Shown piece by piece: positions 4,154 through 59,625 of a stretch of 64,000 bases of DNA. The stretch lies in the NCBI RefSeq assembly GCF_000151315.2, contig NW_011887301.1, positions 511,545 through 575,544 of the forward strand, read 5' to 3'. Position 1 is the stretch's first letter. Every line of letters begins with the position of its first letter. The notes beneath the pieces were generated by a model, which was given only the letters and a program-made list of their open reading frames with translations, had not been told where the DNA came from and did not search any database. The DNA comes from Capsaspora owczarzaki ATCC 30864. Taxonomy: Eukaryota > Opisthokonta > Filasterea. The position numbers and the translations under genes were made by a program.

Positions 4154-7100
4154 ATGTCGCTCGCTGGTGAGACAACTCCTACAACGACGACCACGACGAC
4201 CACGACGACGACGCGTTCTGCTGCAACGCCTGATTCTGCTGCAACTGCAGGTGCTGCTGCTCCGGCGTGGAAGGAGCTCGTTCTGCAGACGTACGCGGCA
4301 CTCGCTGGGCAGCCTCAACCTCTTCAACCAGGTCAACCAGCAGCTCCAGCAACCGGACGCCTGACTCTCGCTGCAGCCATCGCCGCCGTTGCGTTTGCCA
4401 TTCTGTTCGCTGGCATGGGTCCGCTTCGTCTACTGCTCTTCGGCTCGTCGCTCGCCGTCGCTGCAGCAGGCGGCTATGCGTTGGCCTGCGTTTCACTGCG
4501 AGTAAGCACTGAAGCCTGTTTTTTTTTTCAAATTTTGATATGTCGGGTGGCGCGTTGCAACAAGAAGGGCCAACATATCAAAGTCTGAGCATCTGATTGC
4601 ATTTTGAGAGAGCATCTGTATTGGGGGCGGGAGGTGGAACCCAACCGGAGACGAACAGGTCGAATGCGTTTCCAGTGAGATATTCCTACTAGATACATGT
4701 ACTCACTTTTGGCAATAACTGAACTTCTAGGGGCGAAAACCAGCTCTCAAGCATCTCGAGCCAGAGCAAGCTGAACGCGAAAGGCTGGCCCTGAATGCGG
4801 CAGCGCAAGAGCTGCTGGACGGTTGCGATGCAGATGTGGTACGAAAGCTCTCTGATGTTCTGAAGGTGTGCGTCTGAGAAGCAACGAACGTGCTTGACTT
4901 GCTTTGCTCTCCATCCACTTGTAGAACGATGCACCGGGATCGGTGTTGGACATCTCCGAGTCTGTCATGTCTGAGCGATCGGCCGCCACAGCGCCCGCTG
5001 CGCTTTGCAGACGCTCGAGACAGCTGTCGCAGGTTGGGGATGGGCTTCAATCCACGCCCCAGCTCAATCTTTCCGTTCCGTTGCACGCTGCCATTTCCAC
5101 ACTGTGCGACTCGTTAGTGGCCAATTACGTGATGGGCTGGTATGGGTACTATATTGGCGACGACGATGCCTTCCTCAGCGACCTCAAGACGCTGATTGTG
5201 AGCGCGTTCTTCAAGTTCCGCGTGTACTCGCCACGATTCGACCTGCCCATGCTGACAGTGTACCGATTTGTGCACATGTTTATCGTGCACTTGCGTCAGT
5301 TCCGCGCAGCGGAGGAGTCCGGCATGGACGTGGCAGCCTACTTTGGGCCCGCAGGTCCGGGTCATCCCTACTTGCACTTTGCTGTGCGCAGCCGTGACAA
5401 CGAGCTCCGCTATTTGCGCCAGGTCGCAGACGTGCTCATTCTCAAGCTGACGCCTCAACGAGAAAACCAGTCGCAAGTGTTTCGACACATGTTCCGCGAA
5501 ATTATTGCTCAGCACTGCTTGCTCCCGACCGTGCGGTATCTGGCCGATCCGGACTATATTAATCAGATGGTGCTAACCATGCTATTGCGGCAGAGGTTGC
5601 GGCCGTACGATCGGGTGAAGCTGAAAGGTAACGAGCTGCGTTTGTTTGCCACTTTTGTTGGCGATGAGCTTTCGCTTATTTTGTCTCCCGTCGTGTCTGC
5701 GCGGTATGCTGATCTTGTTTATTTTCTCCGCAGTGGTACAAGCCAAAAGTATTCTTCACACCAATGTGAAAGGTATTACATGCGAGACAGCGCTCGTGAT
5801 TCGTTTAGGGTCTTTTTTATTTCACATTGCAGCAGCTTACGACTTGGTTCTGATCATTCCTTCCTTTGTCTTCCGCTCGCACAGGTCTGTTGACATGTCA
5901 GATTGTACTGAAGACGAAGGCCGGCGAGCATTCGACACCCAAAACCCCGCCATCCTCTGGCTCACCCACCTGGAACGATGAGGCAATTGTGCCACTTGCT
6001 TCAGTTCAAGGTGACTTCCACATGACTGTATCACTGTACCATTGTCCAAACTCGAATCCCAGCAGCAACGGTAAGGAAATGAGACAAATTAAACTTGGAG
6101 TGGGAGGGCTTGCTCCATCTGACAACTTTGCGCCTCAAAATTCCTCACATGCTTACTTTTCCCGCTTTAGTCTTGTTGGGGACCCAACGAATCGATTTGG
6201 CAAAACTGCCACCTGGCAAGGCCAGCAAGCATTGGCACGCTCTCAACGACCCTGAAACTGGGGTTCAGAGCGGCCTGTTGATGCTTGAACTGACACTGCT
6301 GCTTCGAGAAGACCTTGCCTCCACTGCCAGCTCCACGCCTGCCACCGTGACGGACGATGCCACTGGACACGCTCCAAACAACGAAGCTGCGATGAGTAGT
6401 GCAACCGCTGCAACACCCTCGCCTGTCGCTGCTGCTGCTGCTGCTGCTCCCGCTGCCGCAAAGCCAGTTCCCCCGCCTCGTCCTCCGCGTCCAGCTGCGC
6501 TTGTTGCTGCTGCTCGGGCTGCACCGACGTCGGCGTCTGACTCTCCCGCTACTCAAACGTCCACGTCAAGCACGGACACGCAAAGCACGGACACGACTCA
6601 ATCCACGGATGTTACACAAAGCACGGATACGCTCATCTCCGATGCAGCCAACGAAGCGTCGCTGCAGTGGATGGTGAAGCAACAGCCCCATGCATATGTC
6701 GACGCCAATGTGACGGCTGCTCAGCTCGCGCGATTGTCCGTTCCTGAGTCGACCATGATACTACAAGCCTCGCCTACCCTCACTCCCGTCCAGGCGGCTG
6801 TGCAGATGACCCGCTTGCTTCGAAGCAATGCCGCATTTGGCTGCTTGATGGACTACTTGACCTCTGTGAATGCCAAGGCACTGTTGCAGTTTTGGATTGA
6901 CGCAGACCAGTTCCGTCAAGTGACGGCTGCTGCTGCAGGAGTGCATACCATTTCCACACCCGTTGTCAAAGCGGAAATGTGTCGTCAAGAGGCTCGGCAC
7001 ATTGTGCAGCAGCACCTCAAGCCTGACAGTCCCAGCCACATCCATGTGTCCAGGTATGCGGGCAAGGCGCGTCGTTTGCGTGCTTTTTTTGTTGTTGTTG

Positions 7101-9666
7101 TTGCTGCTGCTTTGTTTTTTGCTGAGGGTTTTTGCTGGGGGCTCTTTGTGAGAGAGGAGGGTGCCAAGTTCTGACCCGCAACGCTCTTTGCTGCTTTGGT
7201 AGTCGTGCATTGGCCATTGTGCTTTCAGCACTGGAAGACTCGACCGTGACGCCTGGACTGGAGCTGTTCCGCCCTATCGAGTCAGAGGTGTTTGCACGCT
7301 TGTGCGAACACCTGCCTGGATTCTTGGCCAGCTCTTTTTATGCGAATTTTATTGGTGAAGCTTCCTTCCCTGCTGCAGCAACCGGCAATTCCACGTCTGG
7401 AACAATCCCGTCGTCAGCCAGCCAGACCTCCGTTGCCGACATTGCGTCTTCCGTGAGCAGTGCTGCGACCGAGGCCGTTGTAGAAACACCGGTGAGCACA
7501 TCAGCCGATGGTGCGCCGACTTCGCTGGCGCACACTCCCGGCGCACCTCCCTCGACGGCCAGTTCCGAAGCTCATATCGAAGCGCCCGCTGTCGCGGCTC
7601 CCGCCGATGGTGACAGCATCATTCCAACCACAGGATTGCCTCCGATCGCTCTCCCAGTGGTCGTGCAGCCAGTCACGCTCACTCCAAAGGAACACGATGA
7701 CACCCCGGATGTCGATCTGGACGACGACGAACGTCTCAACCGCGACATCACACGCACAAAACAACACGATGGAACCAAATCGCACAAGCAGGCTCCAGCT
7801 GTGCCCCCGCGCCCTGCCCCCTCTGTGCTGGCTCACCGTCAGTCACAAGCCGCATCTCACGGTGTATCATTGGTCATTCCTGCAGCGGTGCACTATGCTC
7901 AGGTCAAATCGACTGGAGCTGATGCGCATCACGAAGAAACGAGCACTACCCGCCGCCTGTTGTCAAAGCTTGGTGTCAGAGACGACGCTGCAAGCACTGG
8001 CACTGCTGGAGCTTCTGGTCCTGGCTCGACATCTACGACCGCCGGGATCACTGAGCCGCAAGAAGGCGGCGTGAAGGAGGCCATCGCGACATTTGGCAAC
8101 CTGATTGATCGCTTGCGCAGCAAGTCAAGGAGTGATGGCGCGCCAGAGCTAGACTTGCCCCGTGCATCTAGTGGCGGTGACAAGGCCTACAAGGCTCACA
8201 TTATTGAAACCCAGCTCGATTCCAAGCAGCGAATTCAGTATGTCGTGACTGTGCAGCCTCTTGCACCGGCCCCTGCTGCTGCTGCTGCTGCTGCTGCTGG
8301 GAATGACAATACTGCCACTGGTGGTCACGACGCTGTCACGTTGGCCCCGCTTGCATCCACCAACGACCCGTCCACACTAGGCGCGCCAGACACGGCTCAT
8401 TCCTCGTCCGAAAACGCGCAATATCCGTTGCCTGCTGTGCGAGAGACCGGATGGGTTATTGTTCGGTCCTTCCGCGACTTTTCGACCCTGCACACAGCAC
8501 TCCAAAAGCTCCAGAAGGTGCGCAACATTGATTTCCCGAGCAGCACCCTGGAACGAACCAATCATGCAGCTGCTCGCGTGCAGCTCGATACCTTTTTGCA
8601 ACAGCTTCTTGCCGACCCGCAAGCGAGCCAAACCGAAGCGGTGGCAAACTTTTTGAACATGGGTGAGGTGGTCTCGCACGCTGGAGCAAGCCACGGCGCG
8701 TCCCCAGCCCAGATCGACGCTGATAGCGACAGTGTGCTCGATCGAGTTTCTGCCAAATTCCGCTTGATCAAGGAGAAACTTGTCGATGACAAAGACCCCA
8801 AAGACGGGCCAAAGAAGGTTTCGGGCAAGCTGTTTTCGTCCTTTTTGCATGGCAGTGATGAAGACATCCAGGCTGCTGAGGCAACCGCTAGCGTGCATCC
8901 AACAGTGCCCGCTTCAGCAGAGGCTGCTCCGACAAGGTTGGCAAGCGTGGACTCGGATCTTGCTGCTTCGCCTCTCGATAGCCTTCATGGTGCCACTGCC
9001 AGTCGCAACAGTCCAGATGCCAGCGGAATTCCGAGTCGTGCTCGATCCACACCCGAGCCGCAAGCCGCACCATCAGACAGCAGCTCTGTTGCCGCGGCGT
9101 CTACCACGACCGACGACAACGAGGATGTGTTTTCGGAATCGGAGCTGTCCTTCATTAGCGGGGAGGACGGCGACCTGTTGATTGAAACTGGATTTGCGTT
9201 GATGGACGAGCTCTTCATGCTCAAAGACGAAGACAAGTGGCTGCGTCGCCAAGCCGTGTCTGTCCTCAAGCAAGTTTTGCTTCAGATGCACGGTGAAACA
9301 ATCAATCGCCGCATCATCGAGTCGATGCACGCCATGACCAACGAAAAGCAGTGGGCCGTATTCTTTGAGCGCCTCAACCGTGATATGGCACCGCTTTCCG
9401 CCGCTGCTGGCACGTCGTCGGTGACGGCACTGTCACGCTCCAGCTCTGTGCGTTCTGAGGACGACAAGGCTCGCACTCGCGCAGATGCGCAAGCCGAGCT
9501 GCTCGCCTGCATCCCAGAAGCACTGCAGCATGTTGTCGGCCGATCCAACGCCATCAGCGGCGTGACGCGTGCGTTCGACATGTTGCAGCACGACATTTTG
9601 ACCAAGCACCTGCTCTACACGATGCTCGATGCGACGCTCGTCGCGCTCTTCACCCCGGACTCTTAG
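4154..9666 (+). CDS. SNX13/14/25-type sorting nexin with an inserted C2 domain (PXA-C2-RGS-PX-nexinC)
   Basis: Exons 4154-4501, 4731-4865, 4925-5627, 5734-5772, 5885-6070, 6171-7053 and 7203-9666 join in frame to 1,585 residues. Order: a hydrophobic hairpin near residues 76-116 (likely ER anchor); a PXA domain (about 190-395); a C2-like beta domain (about 398-520, with SGSPTWNDEAIVPL, LLGTQRIDLAKL and SGLLMLELTLL); an Ala/Ser/Thr linker; an RGS domain (about 655-815, core LMDYLTSVNAKALLQFWIDA); a PX domain (about 1096-1245); and a C-terminal nexin domain (about 1425-1580). Family members tether the ER to endosomes, lysosomes or lipid droplets and bind phosphoinositides through PX. The C2 domain is absent from the animal and yeast members I know. 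Its loops lack most Ca2+-binding aspartates, so Ca2+-independent lipid or protein binding is more likely. The family call is firm; subfamily is not. Confidence 0.88.
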
Positions 9667-32558: not shown

Positions 32559-35500
32559 ATGTCGCGAACTTCTCGATTCGCGGCGACATTTTTTGTCGCT
32601 GTTTTGCTGGTCGTTGCTGCCGCTGATGCCGCCCCGCGCATTCACCAGGCGCAGCCCAATGCTGCCAACACGGACGGCACCAGCACCACTCTCTTGAATC
32701 TGAGTGGCGACTTTGGCGTGTCGGCTCCGGCTGCAGGCCAGTTCAAGTGCCTGTTTGGCTCCACCCAACAGCAGTCGGTGGCGGCGACCTGGATTTCTTC
32801 GACCACTGCCACCTGCGTCCTGCCGACGCGTGCGACCCTCGTCTCGAACGGCGTCGATGTGATCGTCCGCAACTACCTCAACGTGCTGCTCCCAGCGCCG
32901 TTCGTCAAAATGAGCTTGACTTTGGACAATGGCGCGACTTTGATCGCCAACTGGCTTCCCATCTTCTTCCCTGTCGCTCCGGCACTCTCGACGCTTTCGC
33001 CCGACCGGTAAGTAGTTGCTGAACAGCAGCATCCCGTTTTGCGCACTCTCGCTCTTTCTTTCTTCCTTTGGCTGCTCCTCGGAGCGAGGGGAGGGGCTCG
33101 GAGGTGGAGGTGTTGACTTCTAATTTGTCACAACATTTTTTTTAAAGTTTGAACCGCCTGTTTTATTTTTCCTTTTTTTTTTTTTTTTTTTAACAACTCT
33201 TGGGGTTCTGTCCCTCAAGCAGTGGGCTGCTGCGAACATTGAAAACATGTCGGAAGGTGTGCGACTTTTGATTGATTTGTTGCCGCCACTGAATGGCTCG
33301 CGAGTGGTGATGATGATGACGATGATTGCGCATCGAACCATGCAAAACAAACGGACCAGAAAAAACAAAACAAACCCGCGACGACGCAAAGGCAGGACAA
33401 AAGCAATCAACAACAATCATCAACAAAAGGGGGAAAGGAACAGCTGTTGGCAACAATAACGGCGAACAGGTATTTTTGGTGTGATTTTATTTTGTTTTTG
33501 CGCTATTCGCATTTTGCCTTGACGACCGGATTTCTGTTTTTGGATGCCTTCGAAGTTTATTGTCAACCCGATATGACACACCCGCTCCTTATCATCCACT
33601 CACTCGACGATGCATCCTGCACAACTTGACTCTCGCAGCGGTCCGACGACTGGCAACACTGTTGTTAGTGTTCAAGGCGCAAAGTAAGTTGCTAATGCCA
33701 CAATTCTCGCTTGTGGAGGAGTGTACGAAAATTCTAACGATGGAACACAACAGCATTCTTGACAGCCGCGACCTTCGCTGCAAGTTCAATGGGCAAGAAA
33801 CGGTCGGTGCTTACGTGGACAGCACTCACTTGCAATGCCCGACTGCTCCTCAAGGCTCGGCTGCAAACGTGAACATCGAAGTCAAGTCAACTCCCAAGCA
33901 CATTAGCATGGCCCACCTGTTTGACGGTGTCAACGACTTTAGCGTCGCGCCCATTCCAACTTCGCTCCTTCAGTTCAACTTGACTGTTGAGATTTGGTTC
34001 CGCCCTGCCACGCCCGTTGGCTTGATCCAGGCTCTGGTTGACAGCTGCGTGCCTGGCGAAACTCCAGAGACAAACTGCAACTTTTGGATTGAAACTGGCA
34101 AGGCTGTTGCAGACGGCATCCATGGCGAGATTGGCATTGGTCACGAGTTTGGGGCGGGCAGCAATCAGCAATATGTGTACTCGGGGATCTTGGACAACAC
34201 TTACAAGAACAAGTGGACGCACATTGCGCTCGTGCGCGAAGTGTGGGACAACACTACCATCGAGTGCTCTGGATCGTCGTGCCCCTTCGTTGGCGAGTAC
34301 CGCACGTACGTCAACGGCGAGCTTCTGCTCCCCACCTACAAGTTTACCGTCAACACTGATTTTGGCGAGACCAACACGTACGTTGGCTCGCTTTACACGA
34401 CGTCGTTCTACAACGGCGGCATGGATGATTTCCGCATCCTCAACTACCCCATGACTCAAGCGCAGGTTCAGCAGTCGATGGAGGAGGTTTACTCGGGCTT
34501 TGAGGATGGCGTGCTTGTTTCGTGGGATTTCGAGCCCAACAACCAACAGTTTACTGTCCTCACGTACAACGCCGATGGCGTGACACCCAACACGTACACC
34601 CTCTACGCCCTCACGCCCTCGAACGTGGACGTCAGCCGCCAGCTGAACATGGGTGGCGGGACGAATGTGTTCATTCCGAGCATCATCCAGACCGTTGCTT
34701 TTGCTGACTACCCGAGCTCTGCCCCGACTCTGAACTTTTTGTACTACACGCCCGAGACTATTACCACCTTTGCGCCCATGCACGGTGTTGTGTCTGGCGG
34801 CACGGTGGTGACTATTCAAGGCACTGGCTTTTTGAACTCGACCTACCTGTACTGCCGCTTTGGTAGTGCCACCGCAACTCCAGCAACCTTTATCGATGCA
34901 ACCACTCTGGAGTGCACCGCACCCGCCTTCACGGCTTGCTCGCAGAGCTCTGACAGCTTGAGCATTCCCGTTTACGTGTCAAACAACAACCAACAGTTTG
35001 TCGTCTCGTCAACCAATTTTACCTACTACCAGGCACCGACAATCCAAAGCGTGGCTCCTTCGCAGGCACCACTCGCTGGTAATGTGCCAGTTACCATCTA
35101 TGGCTCCGGCTTTGTGAATACCCCCGAGTTCCGCTGTCTGTTTGGCGTTATTGCTGTCGTGCCTGTTAGCGTCACTGCAACCTCTGCAGTTTGCGTGACC
35201 CCAGACAATCTGCCCGAGGGTGCTGTTGTGGCAAGTGTGACGATCGACGGCCAGACAGCGACGACTTCGCAAGTGATTTTCACGGCATTCGACCAATGGT
35301 CACAGATCGAGTCGACGGCTGTTGGTATTGCCATCATTCTCGGCATTGGCTTTGTGATGGTCGTTTGCGTTCACATCTGGCTATTTATCAATCGAAATCA
35401 GAAGATTGTCAAGGCATCTGCACCTCTGTTTGGTCAGTTTATTCTGTTCGGGGCGTACCTCGGCTTCGGCGCAGTTGCCGCCTTCTTCCCCACGCCGACA

Positions 35501-36526
35501 GACGCCTCTTGCACTGTCGGTATCTGGTTTGTCTTCCTCTCGTTCACCTTCATGTTTGCAAGCCTATTTATCAAGAACTGGCGCATCCAGCGCATCTTCA
35601 CTGTACGTGGTTGAGTTTTTGCTTGAGTGGTCTTTGCTCATGCTGTTTGTATGCATCGCTAACCTGTGATGCTGTACAACAATTGTAGAACAAGAAGCTT
35701 GGAAAGAACGTTTCACGCAATCTCGGGGATTCTCGCCTTGTTTTGGTGCTGTTTGTGTTTGTCGCAATCATGGCCATCATTCTTGCTGTTTGGACGGGCA
35801 CTTCGAACGACAAGGTGGAGGTTCAGGATGACGGCTTCTCCTCTTGCTACGTTAATCCTACTTTCCAAGGCATCCTGTTCGCCTACATGGGTTTGATGTT
35901 GCTGTTCGGTATCGTTCTGGCCTTCCGTACCCGCAACATTCAGGACGAAGCGTTCAATGAAAGCAAGATGGTTTCGGTGGCCATCTACAATGTTGCTTTC
36001 GTCACCGTCATCATGATTCCGCTGGTCTCGTTCACCACAGATGTCCGTGCTCTCCTCGTGATGAAGGTACGATTCGTTCTGCGGGTGATGTGAGAGTCAA
36101 GTACCACAGCTTGCCTCACAAATGTTCTTTGCAACCATCTTCCTTTTGCTTTCTCTTTGGTACGATAGAGCGTCGGTATCCTGTTTGCAGTCCTTGTTAC
36201 TGTAGGATTGGTGTTCTTCCCCAAGATTTGGGCCGTTGCCTTGCATAAACGTCGCGCGTGAGTGCCACCATTCCTCGTGGTTGTTGCAACTGACGAATTG
36301 ATTTTGTTGCTCACATGTCGCTGGTTCATTTCTTTTCTTGTCATTCAGTGCACGCAACCGCACCGACTCTACCAACCCCGACACCTCCAAGCGCACCGGA
36401 GCTGCAAGCGCGTCCAACCGACGACCATCCCCACACTCAACCGAGACACACTCCGAGAAGCATCAAATGAGCGAGATGCACGCGTCAGACAACCCAGTGC
36501 CGGCCGAACCGCAAGTAGTTGTTTGA
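32559..36526 (+). CDS. Class C GPCR with IPT/TIG and LamG-like ectodomain, copy A
   Basis: Exons 32559-33007, 33639-33683, 33754-35602, 35689-36066, 36169-36257 and 36349-36526 join in frame to 995 residues. Order: signal peptide; a beta-rich N-terminal domain; IPT/TIG 1 (about 141-210, GPTTGNTVVSVQG ... DLRCKFNG); a concanavalin/LamG-like domain (about 218-430, FDGVNDF, WTHIALVRE, YVNGELL, MDDFRILN); IPT 2 (about 500-590); IPT 3 (about 591-680); seven membrane helices (about 684-955); and a Ser/Thr/Arg-rich tail. The 7TM core has class C (GABA-B/mGlu) marks: KASAPLFGQFILFG, FASLFIKNWRIQRIF, LAFRTRNIQ..AFNESK, SVAIYNV and LVFFPKIW. There is no Venus-flytrap domain. A plasma-membrane receptor for a glycan or matrix ligand, coupling to G proteins, is inferred. 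The tail ends VVV, a possible PDZ ligand. Confidence 0.88.
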
Positions 36527-38028
36527 GTTTGTTTCGTGCCAGTCGTTTTTGTTTGTTTTGTTTTGCATTTTCGTTTTGTTTTTGCTTAGCTTTCGTTTTG
36601 CTACCGCTGTTATTTGTGATGAATTGGGCTGAGCCACCGTTTGAGCTATTATATTTTGAGTAAACAATATTCTAGCATGCTTCGGTAGTTGTGCAGGCGA
36701 GGTTGCGACCGTTAAACTTGCAGAGCTGGTCCAACTCCATCCTTCGGCTCAAGCTGCTTAGTCCGCCTGCGTCGCGGACCATGGTGTTTTGCTACTGTTA
36801 ATGCTACTGTTAATACTTGTGGTGATGCTTGTGGTGATGATGGCGCAGGTGAGTCGTTGCCAAAATCGCACAAGTGTTTCAAGTCGTGTTTCAATCAACT
36901 TTGCCACCCATTTCTCGCTGCTGTGAGGATTCTCTCGGCCTGTGCTCGAAACCTCTGCATTCACAGAGGTTTTTTTATTCGGAGACTGAGAAAAGCAGGT
37001 TTGGAAGATCAAGTGAGGGGGTGGTGTGAGTTTCAGGGTTGCTCGTTTTTGTCGTGACAATTCCAAGCTCACAATCAGCACGCTTCGAAAAAACGACAGG
37101 CCCGGAGATAGTCCCGCATTGGGAACCGACAATTACACGAGATCACTGGCGCAAGGGGAAGGCACACGGAGGTCGGGAAGGCGTGTAACGGTGAGCAGGA
37201 AAGTGGGTCCTGGGGACATGTTTGTTTCATTCGTTTCGCTTGAGTAATTTCGGCTAATCCTGACGTCGAATAATCGTTGTTTCATCCCGCAACTGCCCCG
37301 CAACTGCCCTGTGAGGCTATTGGCCGGTTTTTCGACAAATGGCGTGTCAGGTGTTTGTGTTTGATTCCGTTTTGTTGTTGGGGAGCAAACACAAACAACA
37401 AAACACATAACAAAATGACATGACAATCCAAACGCCACACCTGCTGGCTGATCTGCCGCCGCCGCTTGTTGATTCATAGAGCACAGCGGCAGGCGTCGCC
37501 CGCGCCACCCCCCTCTCCCTCCCTCGGCAGAGCGCGTCGACGATGGTCCCACTCGCTGCGTTCTCTGCGTCCGGTGAGCGGCAGTGCGGGTCAATAGACT
37601 CCGACAATGGGGGGAAACAAACCAAGCCCCTCGTGGCGCAGAGCTGCGGTTTTTGTTGACCGTTTTTGGCAAATCCCGCTCTTCGGACCAAAAGCCCACT
37701 CGCTGCCTCCGCTTCTCTCCGGCGGTGTTGGCCGTTCGTTGCTAGGATCCACTTGCTCTTGTTCCCTACGACCGATGCCCACCAAAGCGAGCCAAACTGC
37801 ACTGCTAACAACGATGACAAAATTGTTTTTGCATTCTGTTGTGGCGTCGTTTTTTTGTTTTTTTGTATTGTTTTGTATTTTTTGGATTTTTTGGAAAGAT
37901 CGTCGTCGTTTTCACTCTTCTTTGTTTTCATTGTTTTTTTTTTTTTATTTTATTTGTTCTTGCCTTTTCTGTTTCTCTTTTCGACACTTTCTCCATCGTT
38001 TCTTTCACCTTGTCAACAAGTGACAACG
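36527..38028. other. Intergenic region between the paired receptor genes
   Basis: I can support no exon here. T-rich leader sequence (37830-37950) precedes the second receptor. Open frames on the minus strand have no recognisable domain. Confidence 0.5.
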
Positions 38029-41000
38029 ATGATGAAGGCTAACGCTTTGCATGCAACGCGCCGTGTTGCGACCGCGTGGGCGAATCGCGCGATGGTGATG
38101 ATGGCAGCTGTCTTGGTCTGCAATCTTGTTTTGTGCGCCGCTGCGCTTCGCCTCGACGTCGTGCAGCCCAACTGCGCGTCCTCCACCACAACCACCTCAC
38201 TGACACTCACTGGCAACTTTGGCGCCGTGTCTCCGAGTGCCGGCGATGTCAAGTGCCTGCTCGGATCCACCCGTCAGTTTGCCGTTTCCGCCGCATGGTC
38301 GTCCACCTCTGTGACGTGCACCATTCCCTCCCTCACCGCTCTTCTCAATGCCGGCGTCGACCTCGTCACTCGCGACTTTTTGTACCAGCCTCTGCGCGCC
38401 AACTATGCACAGTTGCGTGTCACACTTGACAACAATGCCACGGCCGTCGACTCCTGGGTCGCGGTCTTCTTCCCCACCACGTCCACGCTCGCCTCCCTCA
38501 CTCCTGACCGGTAAGACTTTTCTCTCCTGTTGCTTCTGCTTCTGCATTTGCTTTGGAGCAACTCCCACCGTCATGATTCCTCTTTGTTTCCACCACGATT
38601 GTTCGGTCGGATTTCCCATCATTGTCGGGATTCCAAAAAGTCGGAAAAAAAAAAAAAAAAAGAAAGTCGAAAAACAAAAAATCGCCAAAAAAAAAAAAAA
38701 TCAAACTATGAAACGCCCATTTTTATTATCATTTTGCCTTTTCGCATTGCAAAGTGAAGGCGAGTGGGTCAATCTTTCGATCCCTTTGATGGATGCTTTC
38801 ATTGAGCAACGAAGCAAGATCAGATAATGATTGGGGATTTGTGAGAGAGTGGGAGTGTCTTTGACTGTCGCATCCAATCTTCAACAAAAACAGACGGCGG
38901 AAAACAAAAGAACACAAACAAAAACAAAATCCTTGTTGTCAACAACTAAAGCAAAACCGCAGAAGCGGAGAAGGACAATTTAACACCCAGAACAAACAAA
39001 AGTCGTGGATGAATCATCCACTCGGAAGCGAGCAGAGAAAGAACAAACAGACGGAGACGCTGAAGAAACGAGCAGATGAATCAGACAGTGGGAACAAAAA
39101 ACCGACCAAACAAAAACGCGTCAATCACCACAGTTCGCAGCCCACTTGAGATTGAGCTGCGAAATTCTAAAGGAGGAGCGGTGAAGAAGGAACATTATTG
39201 GAAGGAGGAACAAACGGAAACCAGTGTGCGAAAATGATGCGAAAAAACAAAATAAAATGCGAAACTGAAGAACTCACGTCGTGTTTAATTTTCGACGCTA
39301 TTTGATTTGACTGACTTACTTGTGGTTTGCTGCGACTCCTCGGATTCAAAGTGGCCCAACAACTGGCAACACTGTCGTCACGATTGCCGGCACAAAGTAA
39401 GTATCCGCCTGAAGAGCTTGATGTTTTTTGTAACAGAATGCCCTCACCTGTTGACTGTTGACTCGCCACTTTGTTACTTGCAGTGTCCTCGACAGCCGCG
39501 ACCTTCGCTGCAAGTTCAACGGGCAAGAAACGGTCGGTGCTTACGTGGACAGCACTCACTTGCAATGCCCGACTGCTCCTCAAGGCTCGGCTGCAAACGT
39601 GAACATCGAAGTCAAGTCAACTCCCAAGCACATTAGCATGGCCCACCTGTTTGACGGTGTCAACGACTTTAGCGTCGCGCCCATTCCAACTTCGCTCCTT
39701 CAGTTCAACTTGACTGTTGAGATTTGGTTCCGCCCTGCCACGCCCGTTGGCTTGATCCAGGCTCTGGTTGACAGCTGCGTGCCTGGCGAAACTCCAGAGA
39801 CAAACTGCAACTTTTGGATTGAAACTGGCAAGGCTGTTGCAGACGGCATCCATGGCGAGATTGGCATTGGTCACGAGTTTGGGGCGGGCAGCAATCAGCA
39901 ATATGTGTACTCGGGGACCTTGGACAACACTTACAAGAACAAGTGGACGCACATTGCGCTCGTGCGCGAAGTGTGGGACAACACTACCATCGAGTGCTCT
40001 GGATCGTCTTGTCCCTTCGTTGGCGAGTACCGCACGTACGTCAACGGCGAGCTTCTGCTTCCCACCTACAAGTTTACCGTCAACACTGATTTTGGCGAGA
40101 CCAACACGTACGTTGGCTCGCTTTACACGACGTCGTTCTACAACGGCGGCATGGATGATTTCCGCATCCTCAACTACCCCATGACGCAAGCGCAAGTTCA
40201 GCAGTCGATGGAGGAGGTTTACTCGGGCTTTGAGGACGGCGTGCTTGTTTCGTGGGATTTCGAGCCCAACAACCAAGATTTTGACGTCCTCACGTACAAC
40301 GCCGATGGCGTGACACCCAACACGTACACCCTCTACGCCCTCACGCCCTCGAACGTGGACGTCAGCCGCCAGCTGAACATGGGTGGCGGGACGAATGTGT
40401 TCATTCCGAGCATCATCCAGACCGTTGCTTTTGCCGACTACCCGAGCTCTGCCCCGACTCTGAACTTTTTGTACTACACGCCCGAGACTATTACCACCTT
40501 TGCACCCATGCACGGTGTTGTATCTGGCGGCACGGTGGTGACTATTCAAGGCACTGGCTTTTTGAACTCGACCTACCTGTACTGCCGCTTTGGTAGTGCC
40601 ACCGCAACTCCAGCAACCTTTATCGATGCAACCACTCTGGAGTGCACCGCACCCGCCTTCACGGCTTGCTCGCAGAGCTCTGACAGCTTGAGCATTCCCG
40701 TTTACGTGTCAAACAACAACCAACAGTTTGTCGTCTCGTCAACCAATTTTACCTACTACCAGGCACCGACAATCCAAAGCGTGGCTCCTTCGCAGGCACC
40801 ACTCGCTGGTAATGTGCCAGTTACCATCTATGGCTCCGGCTTTGTGAATACCCCCGAGTTCCGCTGTCTGTTTGGCGTTATTGCTGTTGTGCCTGTTAGC
40901 GTCACTGCAACCTCTGCAGTTTGCGTGACCCCAGACAATCTGCCTGAGGGTGCTGTTGTGGCAAGTGTGACGATCGACGGCCAGACAGCGACGACTTCGC

Positions 41001-42286
41001 AAGTGATTTTCACGGCATTCGACCAATGGTCGCAGATCGAGTCGACGGCTGTTGGTATTGCCATCATTCTCGGCATTGGCTTTGTGATGGTCGTTTGCGT
41101 TCACATCTGGCTATTTATCAACCGAAATCACAAGATTGTCAAGGCATCTGCGCCTCTGTTTGGCCAGTTTATTCTGTTCGGGGCGTACCTCGGCTTCGGC
41201 GCGGTTGCCGCCTTCTTCCCCACGCCGACAGACGCCTCTTGCACTGTCGGTATCTGGTTTGTCTTCCTCTCGTTCACCTTCATGTTTGCAAGTCTGTTTA
41301 TCAAGAACTGGCGCATCCAGCGCATCTTCACTGTACGTGGTTGAGTTTTGCTTGAGTGGTCTTTGCTCATGCTGCTGTTCGCATCGCTCACCCCCTTCCC
41401 CTTGCGCCTGCCCCTTTGGTGATGCTTTACGACTGTCGTAGAACAAAAAGATTGGCAAAACTGCATCGCGCAACCTTAGCGACGATCGCCTCGTCTTGTT
41501 CTTGTTCATGCTCGTGACTGGTATGGTTGCCATCCTCGCGGCTTGGACTGGCACGTCGAACGATAAGGTGGATATCCACGATGACGGCTTTGCCTCCTGC
41601 TACGTCAATCCTACTTTCCAAGGCATCCTGTTTGCCTACATGGGTGTGATGTTGCTGTTCGGTATCGTTCTGGCCTTCCGTACCCGCAACATTCAGGACG
41701 TAGCATTCAATGAGAGCAAGATGATTTCAGTGGCCATCTACAATGTCGCTTTTGTCACCATCATCATGATTCCGCTGGTCTCGTTCACCACGGATGTCCG
41801 TGCTCTCCTCGTGATGAAGGTACGGTTGTCTAGAACTGAACGGCACTGACGGGTTTGGCCCTTGACTCACCCTTTCCTCTCCTCGATGCTGTTTGTTGCT
41901 GCTGCTACAGAGCGTCGGTATTCTGTTTGCCGTCCTTGTGACTGTCGGTTTGGTGTTCTTCCCCAAGATTTGGGCCGTCGCCATGCATAAGCGTCGCGCG
42001 TGAGTGCCACACTCTTGACTTGAATTCAAGGTCTGATTCTTGAAAAAACATACTCACTTGTTTTGCACAACCACATGTCCTTTGGTTTTCAACTTTCAGG
42101 GCTCGTGCTGCTGGCTCGTCCGACGCACAACCGACGCCCTCTGGCTCAAACCCCAACGGCGTTTCTGGCCGCGCGAACTCTGTTCATCATTCATCGGGAG
42201 ATGGCTCTCATTCCAAAAACGAACGGTCCGAGCGACTCAGCATGAAGAAGCCCGAAGTCAAGACCGAAGTCGTCATTTACGGTTAA
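38029..42286 (+). CDS. Class C GPCR with IPT/TIG and LamG-like ectodomain, copy B
   Basis: Exons 38029-38510, 39352-39396, 39484-41332, 41442-41819, 41911-41999 and 42100-42286 join in frame to 1,009 residues. Exon count, phases and the lengths of exons 2 to 5 (45, 1849, 378 and 89 nt) equal those of copy A. Domain order is the same: signal peptide, divergent N-terminal domain, IPT 1, LamG-like, IPT 2, IPT 3, class C 7TM, short tail. The protein from exon 3 differs from copy A at only 5 of 616 positions, exon 4 at 21 of 126, and the N-terminal exon and tail differ throughout. This suggests shared core function with different ligand cap and different intracellular partners. Two consecutive ATGs (38029, 38032) could start it. 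A tandem duplication is certain; recent conversion of exon 3 is inferred. Confidence 0.88.
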
Positions 42287-54002: not shown

Positions 54003-55571
54003 CTTGAGTGTTTAGACTGGATTTTTTCCAACGCAAAAAGCAGAAGAAGAACAAGAGTGAGATGAAGACAAAGACGATGATGATGATGAAAAATGGGCAA
54101 AAAGCGTTCAGAGTGAAAGCAAAAGTGATTGAGAAATACAGCGATTGAGCAATGGAAAAAAAAAAAAAAAGAGAAAAGAAAAAAATTACGTTGATCAACC
54201 GCGTGGGTTTTTTTTTTTTTTTTAACTTTGGGTTTTTGGAGGAAATGCATTGGAAGGACGAAAAAGGCACAACCGCGGCCCGTCGTTGTGTGCGGCAATG
54301 GAGACCGGACTGCTCGGTGCAACAAAGCACCTGTCGAATGCACAGTGCGGCGGAAGCGTCACCAGACCAGCGGGAGGGAGCGCAAAGCACAAGAAGGCGA
54401 TCTTGGCTTTTTTTTTCGTTTTTTTTTTTTTGCTTTTTGACACGCAAGAAAAGAGACCCCACGCGGCAAGCCACACGAAACAGAGTCGCTTGTCGCTTCG
54501 ACCGCCAATGCTCGAGTGCTGGCTCAGGTCGTACAACGACAAGCAAAAGCAAAGAGAAAAAAAAAAGGTTCAAGGAAAAAAAAAAGTTCAAGGAAAAAAA
54601 AGCCCATATGGGATGGGTTTTGGGCTGGAATGGACACTGTTCGTGTCGATGGACCAGCCGACCCCCGCCCCATCGAGCAATAGAACAGTGAGTGTAGCGG
54701 CAATGCCAGGCCGCAGCGAGGTCAGACGAGGAGGAAGATGAGGGAAGGCAAAGACCAAAGGCAAAAGGAAGAAAACGAAAAAAAAAAAAAAAGCCATGCT
54801 TTCATTCAAAAAAACAAAGAAAAAAGTCAATCGCTCTCTTCAAGCTGCTTGGCGGTGCTCCATGCCATCCAGGCAGAAAAGAAGCGCGCAAGCTGAAAGA
54901 AGCACACACGGTTGGAGGCAGAGGCAGGCGAGGCGAGCAGAGAAGAAAAAGAAGAAGAAGAAGAAGAAGACGAAGAAAACGAAAAAAAAAATCGTTTGAT
55001 TTTTTTTTTTTTTTTTTTTTTTTGTCGGCTTGAGTTTCTTACGCGATGAACGGGAGAAAGAGCACGTCCACATTCGGAAACGAGTTCAAGAAGCAAAATC
55101 GATAAAAAATCAGAACCAATAAAATGAAATAGCAAGGTTCGAGATAGCACGACATTGCAGCAAAAGCAAGAAGAAAAAAAAATAACGTGGAATAGCATGG
55201 AGCTGGGAGAAGGGCAACGACCAAAATTGCGTTGAACAATGAGCGAGCATCGGGCGATCGTACTCGCCTAGGGATGGATTGCGATGCACACCACCAAAGG
55301 AAACAAGAGTATCGGATTGGAGAGGCCATTGGAGAGCCAAAAAGTGCGTCGTGAAGAAAGCGAGCGAGCGGATTGTGGTCGCGGCAATGCAACTGCGCGA
55401 AAATTGATGATGATTGCCACCGATGCTGCAAACCGCAATCCACTGTGAATGCTGAATTATGAATTTGCATGACAATGATGAAATGGCGTCATGATGTTGA
55501 ACCCTTCAAGCAACTGGAACCAAAAAAAAAAAAAAAAACTTTTGTATGGAGTTTCCATTGGATTTTGGCAG

Positions 55572-55611
<40 letters not shown>
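54003..55611. other. Divergent intergenic region, homopolymer- and GAA-rich
   Basis: About 1.6 kb separate the divergent P2 and caspase-like/Sel1 genes. It contains many A and T runs, a GAA-rich stretch (54940-54985) and T runs at 55000-55023 and 55574-55610. I find no exon. Confidence 0.55.
55574..55610 (+). repeat. 37-nt T homopolymer ending 1 nt before a start codon
   Basis: The T run is followed by a single G and then the ATG of the Sel1-repeat gene. Confidence 0.9.
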
Positions 55612-55821
55612 ATGTCCAACCCTTTCGACGACGACAGCGGCACTGCTGCTGCTGCTGCTGCGGCTGCCGAAGGGACGAATCCGTTCGACCAGGACGATGA
55701 CGACGTCAAGACCAACGCGAACGCGAACGGCAGCGCAAATCCATTCGAGAACGACGACGACGACGACCAAGCGAGCCAAGCTGGGCGCAGTGGCGGCGGC
55801 GGTGCGTTCACGTCTTCCTCG

Positions 55822-55858
<37 letters not shown>

Positions 55859-56024
55859 ATGCTGGGCCACGGCGTTTCACAGACGGCGATGCACAGCAGC
55901 ACCATGGGCCGCAGAAGCCGCGTCGGACCATCCGCGACTCGACCGATGCAGCGGGCGTCGTCCATCACAGCAGCAGCAGTGGCAGCAGCAATCACAGCGG
56001 TTCAGCGTCCTCGTCATTCACCAA

Positions 56025-56066
<42 letters not shown>

Positions 56067-59000
56067 GAGTGCTACAAGTGCTACTGCTACGAGTGCTGCT
56101 TTGAATGCGAAGGCGGCGAACGCAACAGGCAGCAACAGCAGCAACAACCCGTTCGACAGCAGCGACGATGCCGTGCAGCAACCAGCCAAGCCAAAATCTT
56201 CATCTCCATCGACAAGTGCACCAGCAACGCCAACAACAACCTCAGCGACGACGACGACGACGACGACGGCAACTGCATCAGGACTGACTGGATTGGACAA
56301 GACTAAGCCCGCTGCTGCTGCTACTGCTGCTGCTGCTGTATCGCGACTCAATTCAATCACACAGGCAACTGGCGCTACGCCACTGCCCAATAGAGTTGCA
56401 CTGGTTGTGGCTTGCGCTGCGTACGAAGAGCTGAATGCCCACCCAACGGCCATGGCAGATGCCCAGCTGGTGCATGGCGCGCTCACCAATTTGCAATTTC
56501 AAAGCCAACTCGTCGTCAATCTCAGCAAGCAAGAGTTGCTCGAAGCCATCTTTGCGTTTGTTGAGCGCGTCAAGCAGCTCGGGCCGCACACACTGGTGGT
56601 CTTTTCATTCCATGGCCATGGCTTGCAGATTTGTGACGAAAACTACCTCGTGCCAGCCAACACTCTGCTCAGCAACCCGATTCGAGCTGGACGCCAGTGC
56701 TTGCCGGTGGAGGCAGTTCTGTCTCTCCTCAGCGACGCGAACGCTGCATGGATGCTGGTCATGCTGGATTGCGCCCGCACCAACACGTTCAAGTCAAAGT
56801 GGCTGGCAACGCTGAGCTCCTCTGCTGGTGCCGATCTTGAAGACGACGAGCGGGCCCGTTTCCAGCGCAGTGCAACGACGGCCGGGCTCACTCACATCGA
56901 GCCTCGTGCGCGAACTGTGGTTTTGTGCGCTGCTGCGCCAGGATGTTTGCAGGACCCTGCGTCGTCGGGCGACGCACACTCACTGCTAGCCAAGGCCTTT
57001 GCCGACGCTGTTGAAATGAGCATCGATGCTGGCAAGGCTGCTTGCACTCGTGCAGCAGCAGCAGCAGCAGCAGCAGCAGGCGTCGATGGGGACGCAGACG
57101 GCGCGCTGACGCTGCTGGCCCAGCCGTGCACGATGCTGTCCATCGTTTCCATGGCTGCGGAAGGCACTCGGCGAAATTCAGATGGCCACCAGGCTCCTTG
57201 CTTTGTGTATCTCGTTCATCAAGATGCCTGGTTTGACTTTGCTTCGTCTGGAGTCGTCCGATCCTCGATTCGAGACTTTCCTGGCGACGAGCTTCTGCAC
57301 CACAACGACCACTCTGCAGCTCTGACCTACGCACGCCAGCTTTTTGATCAGACACATCATCCTCACGCGGCCTTCATTCTGGGCGTATGCAACGAAGACC
57401 TGGCGACAGCCTATTTTCATCGCATGAGCCTGGAATGGATGGCTGATTTGCGTCAAGCATCGCCCACCAGAGATGCCGACTCTCCATCATTGTCTGACAA
57501 GCACGTCCCTGCAGATCGCACAGCAACCGGCACCCTGCCCCTGAGCAAATCGCTTGGCGCATTGCTCGATCAGATGAAAAAGGCCTACGCCGACGCCATT
57601 CGCTTCTTCTCCATTGCTGCGGCGCAAAGCCATGGTCCCGCAATGTACTGTCTTGGAAGAATGCACCAGCGAGGCTTGGGCGTCAGCCAGGACGAGCGGG
57701 AAGCCGAGCGGCTGTACCAAACCGCCCGTGGCTTTGGCTTTTTGGAGTGGTTCCGGCGCGCTGCAAGCTGTGGCAGCGTTTACGCGCAGTTCAATCTGGC
57801 ACGATGCCTTCACCTGGGCATTGGCGTTACGGCCGACGTCAACGAGGCCATGACCTGGTATCGCCGTGCTGCCAATCAGCAACTTGCAACCGCGCAGTTC
57901 AACCTGGCTCTCATCCTCTCTGCAAAGCGACACACTGGCGTGACCGACCCCGGCAATGCAAGTGAGGCAGCGGCTCTCTTCCATGCTGCTGCCGATCAAG
58001 GCATCCCCGAGGCCATGTTTGAGTACGGCAACATGCTGCAAGAAGGGCGGCACGTCCCGAAAGATCTTGCCGAAGCTGTGCGCTACTTTCGTGTTGCAAC
58101 TGCTCAGGGCAATGCGCATGCACAAGCTGCACTTGGCCATTGCTTTGCAAACGGAACCGGCGTTGTGCAGGACGAGATGGAGGCCTTCCGCCTGATGCGT
58201 GCCGCTGCCGCCCAAAATGAAGCAAGCGCGCTCTTCAACCTCGGTGTCATGTACCTACGTGGCCGTGCTGGCCTTGCCGTCGATCGAGGTGAAGCCGCGC
58301 GCTTGTTCAAGCTGAGCAGCGATCGCGGCAACCCGCATGCACAGTACGCGCTTGGTCGCATGTACAAGGATGGCAAAGGTGTTGACCACAACATGAGCGA
58401 GGCACTGCGTCTATTCCAAGCTGCTGCACAGCAAGGAGACGCCTCTGCGCAAGTTTGCTTGGGCCTGATGCATTACCATGGCCAAGGCGTGCCCAAGGAC
58501 ATTGCCGCTGCAGTTCAGCTCTTTCAAGTCGCTGCTGCTTGTGATTCCGATGCGAGCTTGCCCCTCGATGCCAAGACGCTGGAAAATGATGCCGAGGCAG
58601 CTTCACAGAGTTCCGGCGAGCAGCATGCTGTTGTGACTGCCCGATTCAATCTCGGCTGGGCTTTCATGAACGGCGAGGGCGGTCTGCCTGTCGACAAGGC
58701 AAAGGCCGCGGTGCTCTACCGCTTTGCGGCTGATCGCGGGCTCGCCTCTGCTCAGCAGAATTTGGCTCTGATGCTGCTGCATGGTGATGGTGTCGATCGC
58801 GACGAGCAACAAGCAGCCCACTACTTGGCGCTTGCTGCGGAATCTGGCGATGGCGAGGCCCAGTTCAATCTCGCACTCATGTACCTTGATGGCGTGGGCG
58901 TGGAGGGCAACGAGAAGGAAGCCGTTCGTCTCTTCCGCCTCGCAGCGGACAAGAACTTGCCAGACGCATTGGTCGGGCTCGCGAGCTTGTACATTGAAGG

Positions 59001-59625
59001 GCGCGGCGTGGAAAAGGACGAAACCGAGGCTGCTGCCTTGTACAAGCGTGCCGCGCAGCTCGGACATGGCTTTGCGCGCGCCAGCCTCGGTGTTTTGCAT
59101 CTCCATGGCTGCGGGGTGGCCAAGAATGAGCCTGAAGCTCTGCGCCTCATCCGCGCTGCCGCCGAGTTTGACCATGACGACCACGGCCAATTCACGCTCG
59201 GCTGGATGTATGCCAAGGGCGTTGGAGTGGCTCGCGATGAACGCGAGGCAGTCAAGTGGCTCAAGGCGGCTGCCGAGCAAGGCAATGGCGACGCGCAAAC
59301 ACATCTCGGCTGGATGTACGAGAACGGGCTCGGTGTCGCCAAGAACGAGAAGGAAGCTGCGCGGCTCTACGGCCAAGCAGCTGAGCGTGGCAATGCTGAT
59401 GCACGGTACAACCTCGCCGTCATGTACGAGCGGGGCAGAGGCGTTGTCAAGAACGACAAGGAAGCCATCCGGCTCTACGAGCTTGCCTCCGCGCAAGGGC
59501 GCAACAATGCGGCAACAGCGCTTGAGCGGCTGCAAAAGAAGCTGGCGGACGCAAACGGGACGGCTGCAAACCTGGTCACTTCAGGGGTGGCGTCGTCCGG
59601 CCTCGACTCTGCCATTGAAACGTGA
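55612..59625 (+). CDS. NPF-motif / caspase-like (C14) / Sel1-repeat protein
   Basis: Single exon, 1,337 residues. The disordered N-terminus (1-265) has Ala, Asp and Ser runs and four NPF motifs next to acidic residues (at 3, 23, 43 and 179), typical ligands of EH domains in endocytosis. A caspase-fold domain follows (about 265-560): RVALVVACAAYEEL, VVFSFHGHGLQI (candidate catalytic His336), then MLVMLDCARTNTF with Cys387. In caspases and paracaspases the cysteine is usually one residue later (LDxCR), so activity is uncertain. From about residue 640 to the end there are about 16 Sel1-like repeats (for example EAQFNLALMYLDGVGVEGNE). Sel1 arrays are protein-binding scaffolds, as in ERAD and signalling. 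A role coupling a caspase-like switch to membrane traffic is inference. There is no signal peptide or membrane helix. Confidence 0.85.

Follow-up and report, generated by a model that had tools for sequence, protein, structure and literature searches.

What does the seven-transmembrane (7TM) core of a class C G protein-coupled receptor (GPCR) require of the domain in front of it? Most of what is understood about activation in this class concerns a Venus flytrap domain that closes or, more recently, a Cache domain. Two tandem genes, A and B, of the unicellular animal relative Capsaspora owczarzaki raise the question afresh. They lie on the forward strand within the window analysed here, a stretch of 64,000 nucleotides (C10:511545-575544 of the 27.46-Mb genome, which comprises 29 contigs); positions without a contig name are those of the window. 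A first-pass annotation, made from the sequence alone, proposed that both genes encode class C receptors carrying an IPT/TIG-LamG-IPT-IPT ectodomain in place of the flytrap. Spliced gene models and profile searches place two TIG domains before the LamG domain and two behind it, find a third gene (C) with the same order, and reveal a large exon, joining ectodomain to 7TM core, whose near-identity in A and B points to gene conversion.

Gene A (32559..36526) encodes a predicted class C GPCR of 995 residues, and gene B (38032..42286) one of 1008 residues. Both genes are present as proposed: in the spliced models, the outer limits 32559 and 42286 are the gene A start codon and the gene B stop codon. 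Each comprises six exons with GT-AG introns and a spliced frame free of internal stops (gene A: 32559-33007, 33639-33683, 33754-35602, 35689-36066, 36169-36257, and 36349-36526; gene B: 38032-38510, 39352-39396, 39484-41332, 41442-41819, 41911-41999, and 42100-42286). Gene B has an additional in-frame ATG at 38029. Intron phases 2,2,0,0,2 are common to genes A, B, and C. Exon 3 (1849 bases in both A and B) encodes most of TIG2, then LamG, TIG3, TIG4, and transmembrane segments TM1-TM3, which therefore cannot come from different transcripts. Splice sites, reading frame, and conservation in three genes indicate that exons 1 and 2 belong with exon 3.

Scanned against Pfam (curated cut-offs: 7tm_3, 33.5 bits; TIG, 20.9; Laminin_G_3, 27.6), the spliced proteins score 121.6 (A) and 131.8 bits (B) for TIG, in four stretches each, and 38.9 (A) and 40.6 bits (B) for Laminin_G_3. 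TIG_plexin also exceeds its curated cut-off in both; a fifth family listed for gene A, MTABC_N, lies below its own. The module order in A and B (gene A was scanned in pieces) is TIG-TIG-LamG-TIG-TIG-7TM, the first TIG being weak. The first-pass order thus stands for LamG and the two TIG domains that follow; the single TIG domain proposed before LamG proves to be two.

In gene A, a hydrophobic N-terminal segment (residues 7-25 by hydropathy) precedes the degenerate TIG1 in exon 1 (32634..32873), whose cysteine pair, 64/86, is kept in A, B, and C. TIG2 (32997..33889; 37.3 bits in the piecewise scan; cysteine pair 174/193) is spliced from exons 1-3. Next come the concanavalin-like Laminin_G_3 domain (33971..34471); TIG3 (34757..35026), which exceeds the TIG_plexin cut-off as well; and TIG4 (35036..35275), immediately 5' of TM1. 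The corresponding gene B domains are Laminin_G_3 (39701..40201), TIG3 (40487..40756), and TIG4 (40766..41005), all features being on the forward strand. Pfam scores and three-gene conservation together exclude chance as the source of this architecture.

No Venus flytrap accompanies these modules, as the first-pass annotation had claimed: neither ANF_receptor nor Peripla_BP was found in A or B at E<=1, or in C at E<=0.01. Nor were 7tm_2, GAIN, or GPS found in the spliced A and B proteins at E<=1, and Sema, GAP, and kinase domains likewise are absent from their Pfam matches. Class C also contains the Cache-bearing mGlyR and GPR179, so lack of a flytrap leaves the class C membership of A and B standing.

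The 7TM core is spliced from exons 3-5 (gene A, 35309..36225; gene B, 41039..41967). Its 7tm_3 scores, 178.9 bits in A and 173.2 in B, span profile positions 5-251 of 251 and keep the core in class C. A hydropathy scan lacks seven clean peaks, and one peak lies within TIG4 of A and B (residues 628-646 of A) and is absent in C; the 7TM assignment therefore relies on 7tm_3, the sole 7TM family found. Among the best 60 of 78 matches to chains in the PDB, the gene A core is closest to GABA-B2 (2e-26), followed by GABA-B1 (2.2e-19) and mGlu3 (1.3e-15). All three proteins contain the cysteines of CTVGIWF and CYVNP (TM3 and second extracellular loop), along with KNWRI..IF, FNES, and FPK; these class C motifs stand beside the GABA-B2 alignment. 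The joint before TM1, FDQWS, is identical in A, B, and C.

Used as a genome-wide query, the 465-residue ectodomain of gene A recovered A, B, and C1:719540-720928 (gene C, 59% identity). The only other match covers 77 residues of an SPT23/MGA2-type frame (E 0.0014). Gene C was modelled with six exons, its start being picked from three ATGs and its last acceptor from nine candidates by best fit. Its Pfam matches (7tm_3; TIG in three stretches at E<=0.01; TIG_plexin; and Laminin_G_3) follow the order seen in A and B. Protein identities are 830/992 for A-B, 569/978 for A-C, and 586/986 for B-C. Thirteen ectodomain cysteines are invariant, including one pair per TIG domain (four TIG-type pairs at corresponding positions), and three ectodomain sequons are kept throughout. 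The ratio of nonsynonymous to synonymous divergence (dN/dS) between A and C is 0.18 for exon 3 (dS 1.8, near saturation), and by domain 0.23 for LamG and 0.12 for TIG3-4, where dS is saturated. The low ratios, together with near-saturated dS, make the architecture look old and constrained.

Exon 3 tells a different story for A and B. Its DNA is identical at 1819 of 1849 positions (98.4%, versus 68.4% for random segments of the window put through the same alignment and compared over ungapped columns; n=8 for exon 3, n=60 for each other comparison). The homogenized tract begins at the eighth base of exon 3 and runs about 40 bases into intron 3 (gene A, 33761..35644; gene B, 39491..41373; 3' limits approximate), which indicates homogenization at the DNA level, not confined to the exon. 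Upstream, no excess over random is seen: exon 1 is 67.1% identical (random mean, 67.4%), intron 1 67.3% (67.8%), and intron 2 64.5% (65.2%). The A-B dS is 1.95 (saturated) for exon 1, 0.052 for exon 3, 0.59 for exon 4, and 0.42 for exon 5; exons 3 and 4 differ in divergence with Fisher p ~4.5e-17 (rounded site counts). A near-identical exon flanked by a saturated exon 1 and random-level introns is, as read from these alignments, the mark of gene conversion.

Because A and B are only 1.5 kb apart, a recent tandem duplication with fast-diverging flanks, or an assembly error, comes to mind as a source of the near-identity. Taken together, these alternatives are improbable. Fast protein evolution cannot explain introns 1 and 2 at the level of random segments, and exon 1 of A is no nearer to B (41.8% protein identity) than to C (42.1%). 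Moreover, exon 3 retains 30 differing sites, with 22 of 29 counted codon changes synonymous and no amino-acid change in TIG3-4.

Taken together, these features are best explained, and with reasonable probability, by A and B being members of a three-gene class C family in which TIG-TIG-LamG-TIG-TIG replaces the flytrap on a GABA-B-like core, and which acts in ligand sensing. The modules may serve an adhesion-type function, as the first-pass annotation proposed. In a working model, the N-terminus would be exported and the ectodomain modules would build a rod, whose LamG and TIG domains would bind a protein or glycan of the matrix, of prey, or of another cell. Binding would shift the rod, and the short invariant joint at TM1 would carry that motion into the 7TM. 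The core would thereby be switched to G-protein signalling, probably as a dimer like other class C receptors. Gene conversion would keep the rod and TM1-TM3 alike in A and B and leave the N-terminal TIG and cytoplasmic tail to diverge; A and B might thus recognize one ligand yet engage different partners.

The same ectodomain could instead set surface position, spacing, or trafficking, with no activating ligand, in an orphan-type receptor that signals through partner receptors. GABA-B2 of mammals, with a flytrap not known to bind GABA, would be the precedent; it is also the nearest of the solved structures noted above, and 11 of the 26 class C loci scanned in the genome have no recognized ectodomain in the frames examined. 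Purifying selection on LamG and TIG3-4 (with the saturated dS already noted) and retention of the cysteines and sequons in all three genes argue against this idea, which is unlikely. Alternatively, adhesion proteins might use a class C 7TM chiefly to anchor themselves in the membrane and signal through G proteins weakly or not at all. Adhesion-type modules would suit such a role, as would the short, unconserved C-terminal tail (A-B 22/68; A-C 16/68). However, the 7TM is the best conserved A-C segment among those compared (192/243), and its class C motifs are retained, making an anchor quite improbable.

Several results weigh against the preferred reading of a GABA-B-like, rod-bearing, ligand-sensing family shaped by conversion. 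Deep relationships of the core are poorly supported. IQ-TREE, run on 27 of 29 genomic 7tm_3 loci (two half-length loci omitted) with GABA-B2 and GPR179 fragments, groups A, B, and C at 100 on the GABA-B2 side, with deeper ultrafast bootstrap values of only 56-76. FastTree, run on all 31 rows, gives the trio 1.000, B beside C 0.416, and deeper supports of 0.05-0.25; for these trees, four loci with split exons were pieced together approximately. Ranked by plain identity, the cores beyond the trio begin with C8_442, a LamG locus (79/236), which falls outside the trio group in IQ-TREE; then come C3_484 (75/239), C2_972 (70/238), and GABA-B2 (66/225). With weak deep supports and a nearer core in the same genome, GABA-B kinship is a lean, not proof; the GABA-B marks named in the first-pass annotation are supported by the proximity to GABA-B2 among solved structures. 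In the ectodomain, TIG1 of gene A scores 17.8 bits, below the TIG cut-off. Single-sequence AlphaFold models are unusable (predicted local distance difference test, pLDDT, of 38.6 for exon 1 and 31.8 for the exon-3 ectodomain) and leave the rod shape unsupported. Finally, A-B similarity involves more than one simple tract: exon 4 (83.9%), intron 5 (80.6%; random maximum, 80.0%), and also exon 5 are above random. An older exchange across the 3' part is thus possible.

Known receptors resemble the trio in parts. GABA-B receptors, the closest solved 7TM structures, likewise lack a cysteine-rich domain between ectodomain and 7TM, but have the flytrap that was not found in A and B. Plexins and MET have extracellular TIG domains, and a search with the TIG3 region returned chains of plexin-A4 (5e-7) and MET (3.5e-4); plexins and MET, however, are single-pass GAP or kinase receptors with Sema, whereas the trio proteins are 7TM. 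A genome search found no Sema match, although its control also was silent; C. owczarzaki is reported to be without Sema-domain proteins (PMC6374515). Adhesion GPCRs have LamG ectodomains, and TIG occurs in two from Salpingoeca rosetta (PMC3251606), but they belong to another 7TM class (7tm_2 with GAIN/GPS). The class C receptors mGlyR and GPR179 have a non-flytrap ectodomain built of different modules, Cache and EGF-like (PMC12716839), and the GPR179 7TM fragment (41/179 identical to gene A) is less close than that of GABA-B2.

A TIG domain on one C. owczarzaki class C receptor is already published, which counts against novelty of that pairing. Krishnan et al. (2012) noted TIG (PF01833) in the Glutamate-family protein EFW40850.1 as new to the family (PMC3251606). 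This protein probably is A, B, or C, because TIG beside 7tm_3 is found at three genomic loci. The shared feature is TIG on a class C receptor; the passages of that paper on this protein name TIG in one protein, with no LamG, four-TIG order, three-gene family, or conversion. A 2025 survey describes filasterean Glutamate receptor N-termini as more diverse than animal ones (PMC12716839); TIG, IPT, and concanavalin do not occur as word-start terms in its main text. In the portions of the literature covered by our search, the LamG-TIG order, the receptor trio, and the conversion were not found described, and homogenization of exon 3 appears to be new. A LamininG protein and integrin-adhesome genes are up in C. 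owczarzaki aggregates, in a report whose relevant sections leave the trio receptors unmentioned (PMC3870316). Exon 3 homogenization, the third paralogue, and the published TIG all lie beyond the first-pass annotation. (As a check on a possible prokaryotic source of the ectodomain, two short peptide patterns were run over genome contigs; they gave 33 matches and no relative by tblastn, a weak negative.)

A profile search of the contigs gave 34 matches to 7tm_3 at 29 loci, including the borderline C17:60628 (34.0 bits in one scan and 32.6 in another). Ectodomains at 26 of these loci were scanned with Pfam (C1:3126112, C1:3134374, and C11:459627 were omitted), for most on the 7TM-bearing frame only, so that other exons may hide domains. 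TIG with LamG occurs at three loci (A, B, and C); LamG without TIG at two; ANF_receptor at three; Peripla_BP_5 at one; OpuAC at two; beta-helix-type domains at three; 5_nucleotid_C at one (C3:1323912); and no recognized ectodomain at 11. At C8:442323 (L010), C6:826831 (L011), and C2:972454 (L015), the recognized domain and the 7TM occupy different frames of the same strand, assumed to be one gene; the 7TM frames of L010 and L015 themselves were outside the Pfam scan. Genome-wide, as lower bounds, six of nine TIG matches and all three TIG_plexin matches fall within A, B, and C, and three of five ANF_receptor matches are at class C loci. The other three TIG loci (the SPT23/MGA2-type frame and two TIG frames) were rejected as further receptors, with no 7tm_3 in the frames scanned. 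The published C. owczarzaki Glutamate-family set includes three proteins with ANF_receptor, one with Pentaxin, one with 5_nucleotid_C, and a TIG, the last named in one of 20 receptors (PMC3251606). The domain kinds found here, with Pentaxin scoring at C8:442323, fit that set; the number of receptors differs.

Other class C loci merit mention. At L010 and L011, LamG occurs in the absence of TIG, accompanied at one by Pentaxin and Big_9 and at the other by a borderline Ephrin_rec_like match. L024:288-6815 (C8, minus strand) is a 2176-residue frame with Peripla_BP_5 in three successive ectodomain pieces, perhaps several flytraps in tandem. Beta-helix-type domains (Beta_helix, DUF1565, and NosD) lie inside the L021 and L017 frames and beside that of L015. 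Four tandem class C 7TM genes at C1:3121974-3135111 (L028 and L029) have nearly identical cores, as judged by short tree branches.

Elsewhere in the window, a 1359-residue open reading frame (55546-59622, +) combines a caspase-type Peptidase_C14 domain (57.8 bits) with 14 Sel1 stretches. Adjoining open reading frames at 6095-9663 (+) encode RGS (24.5 bits, barely above cut-off), then PX and Nexin_C, and look like one sorting-nexin gene.

The trio fits a genome whose class C receptors have often had their sensing half exchanged, with seven recognized ectodomain kinds among the 26 loci scanned. It is a speculative and rather doubtful extension that the trio represents a contact-reading receptor class, with a plexin/MET-like TIG stalk and signalling by a class C 7TM, in a lineage where Sema proteins are reportedly absent, conversion keeping the tandem rods alike; adhesion modules would then have come independently, before animals, to drive signalling by G proteins. 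More directly, a three-gene TIG/LamG family on a GABA-B-like core, linked through a short joint, would test what the 7TM requires from its ectodomain.

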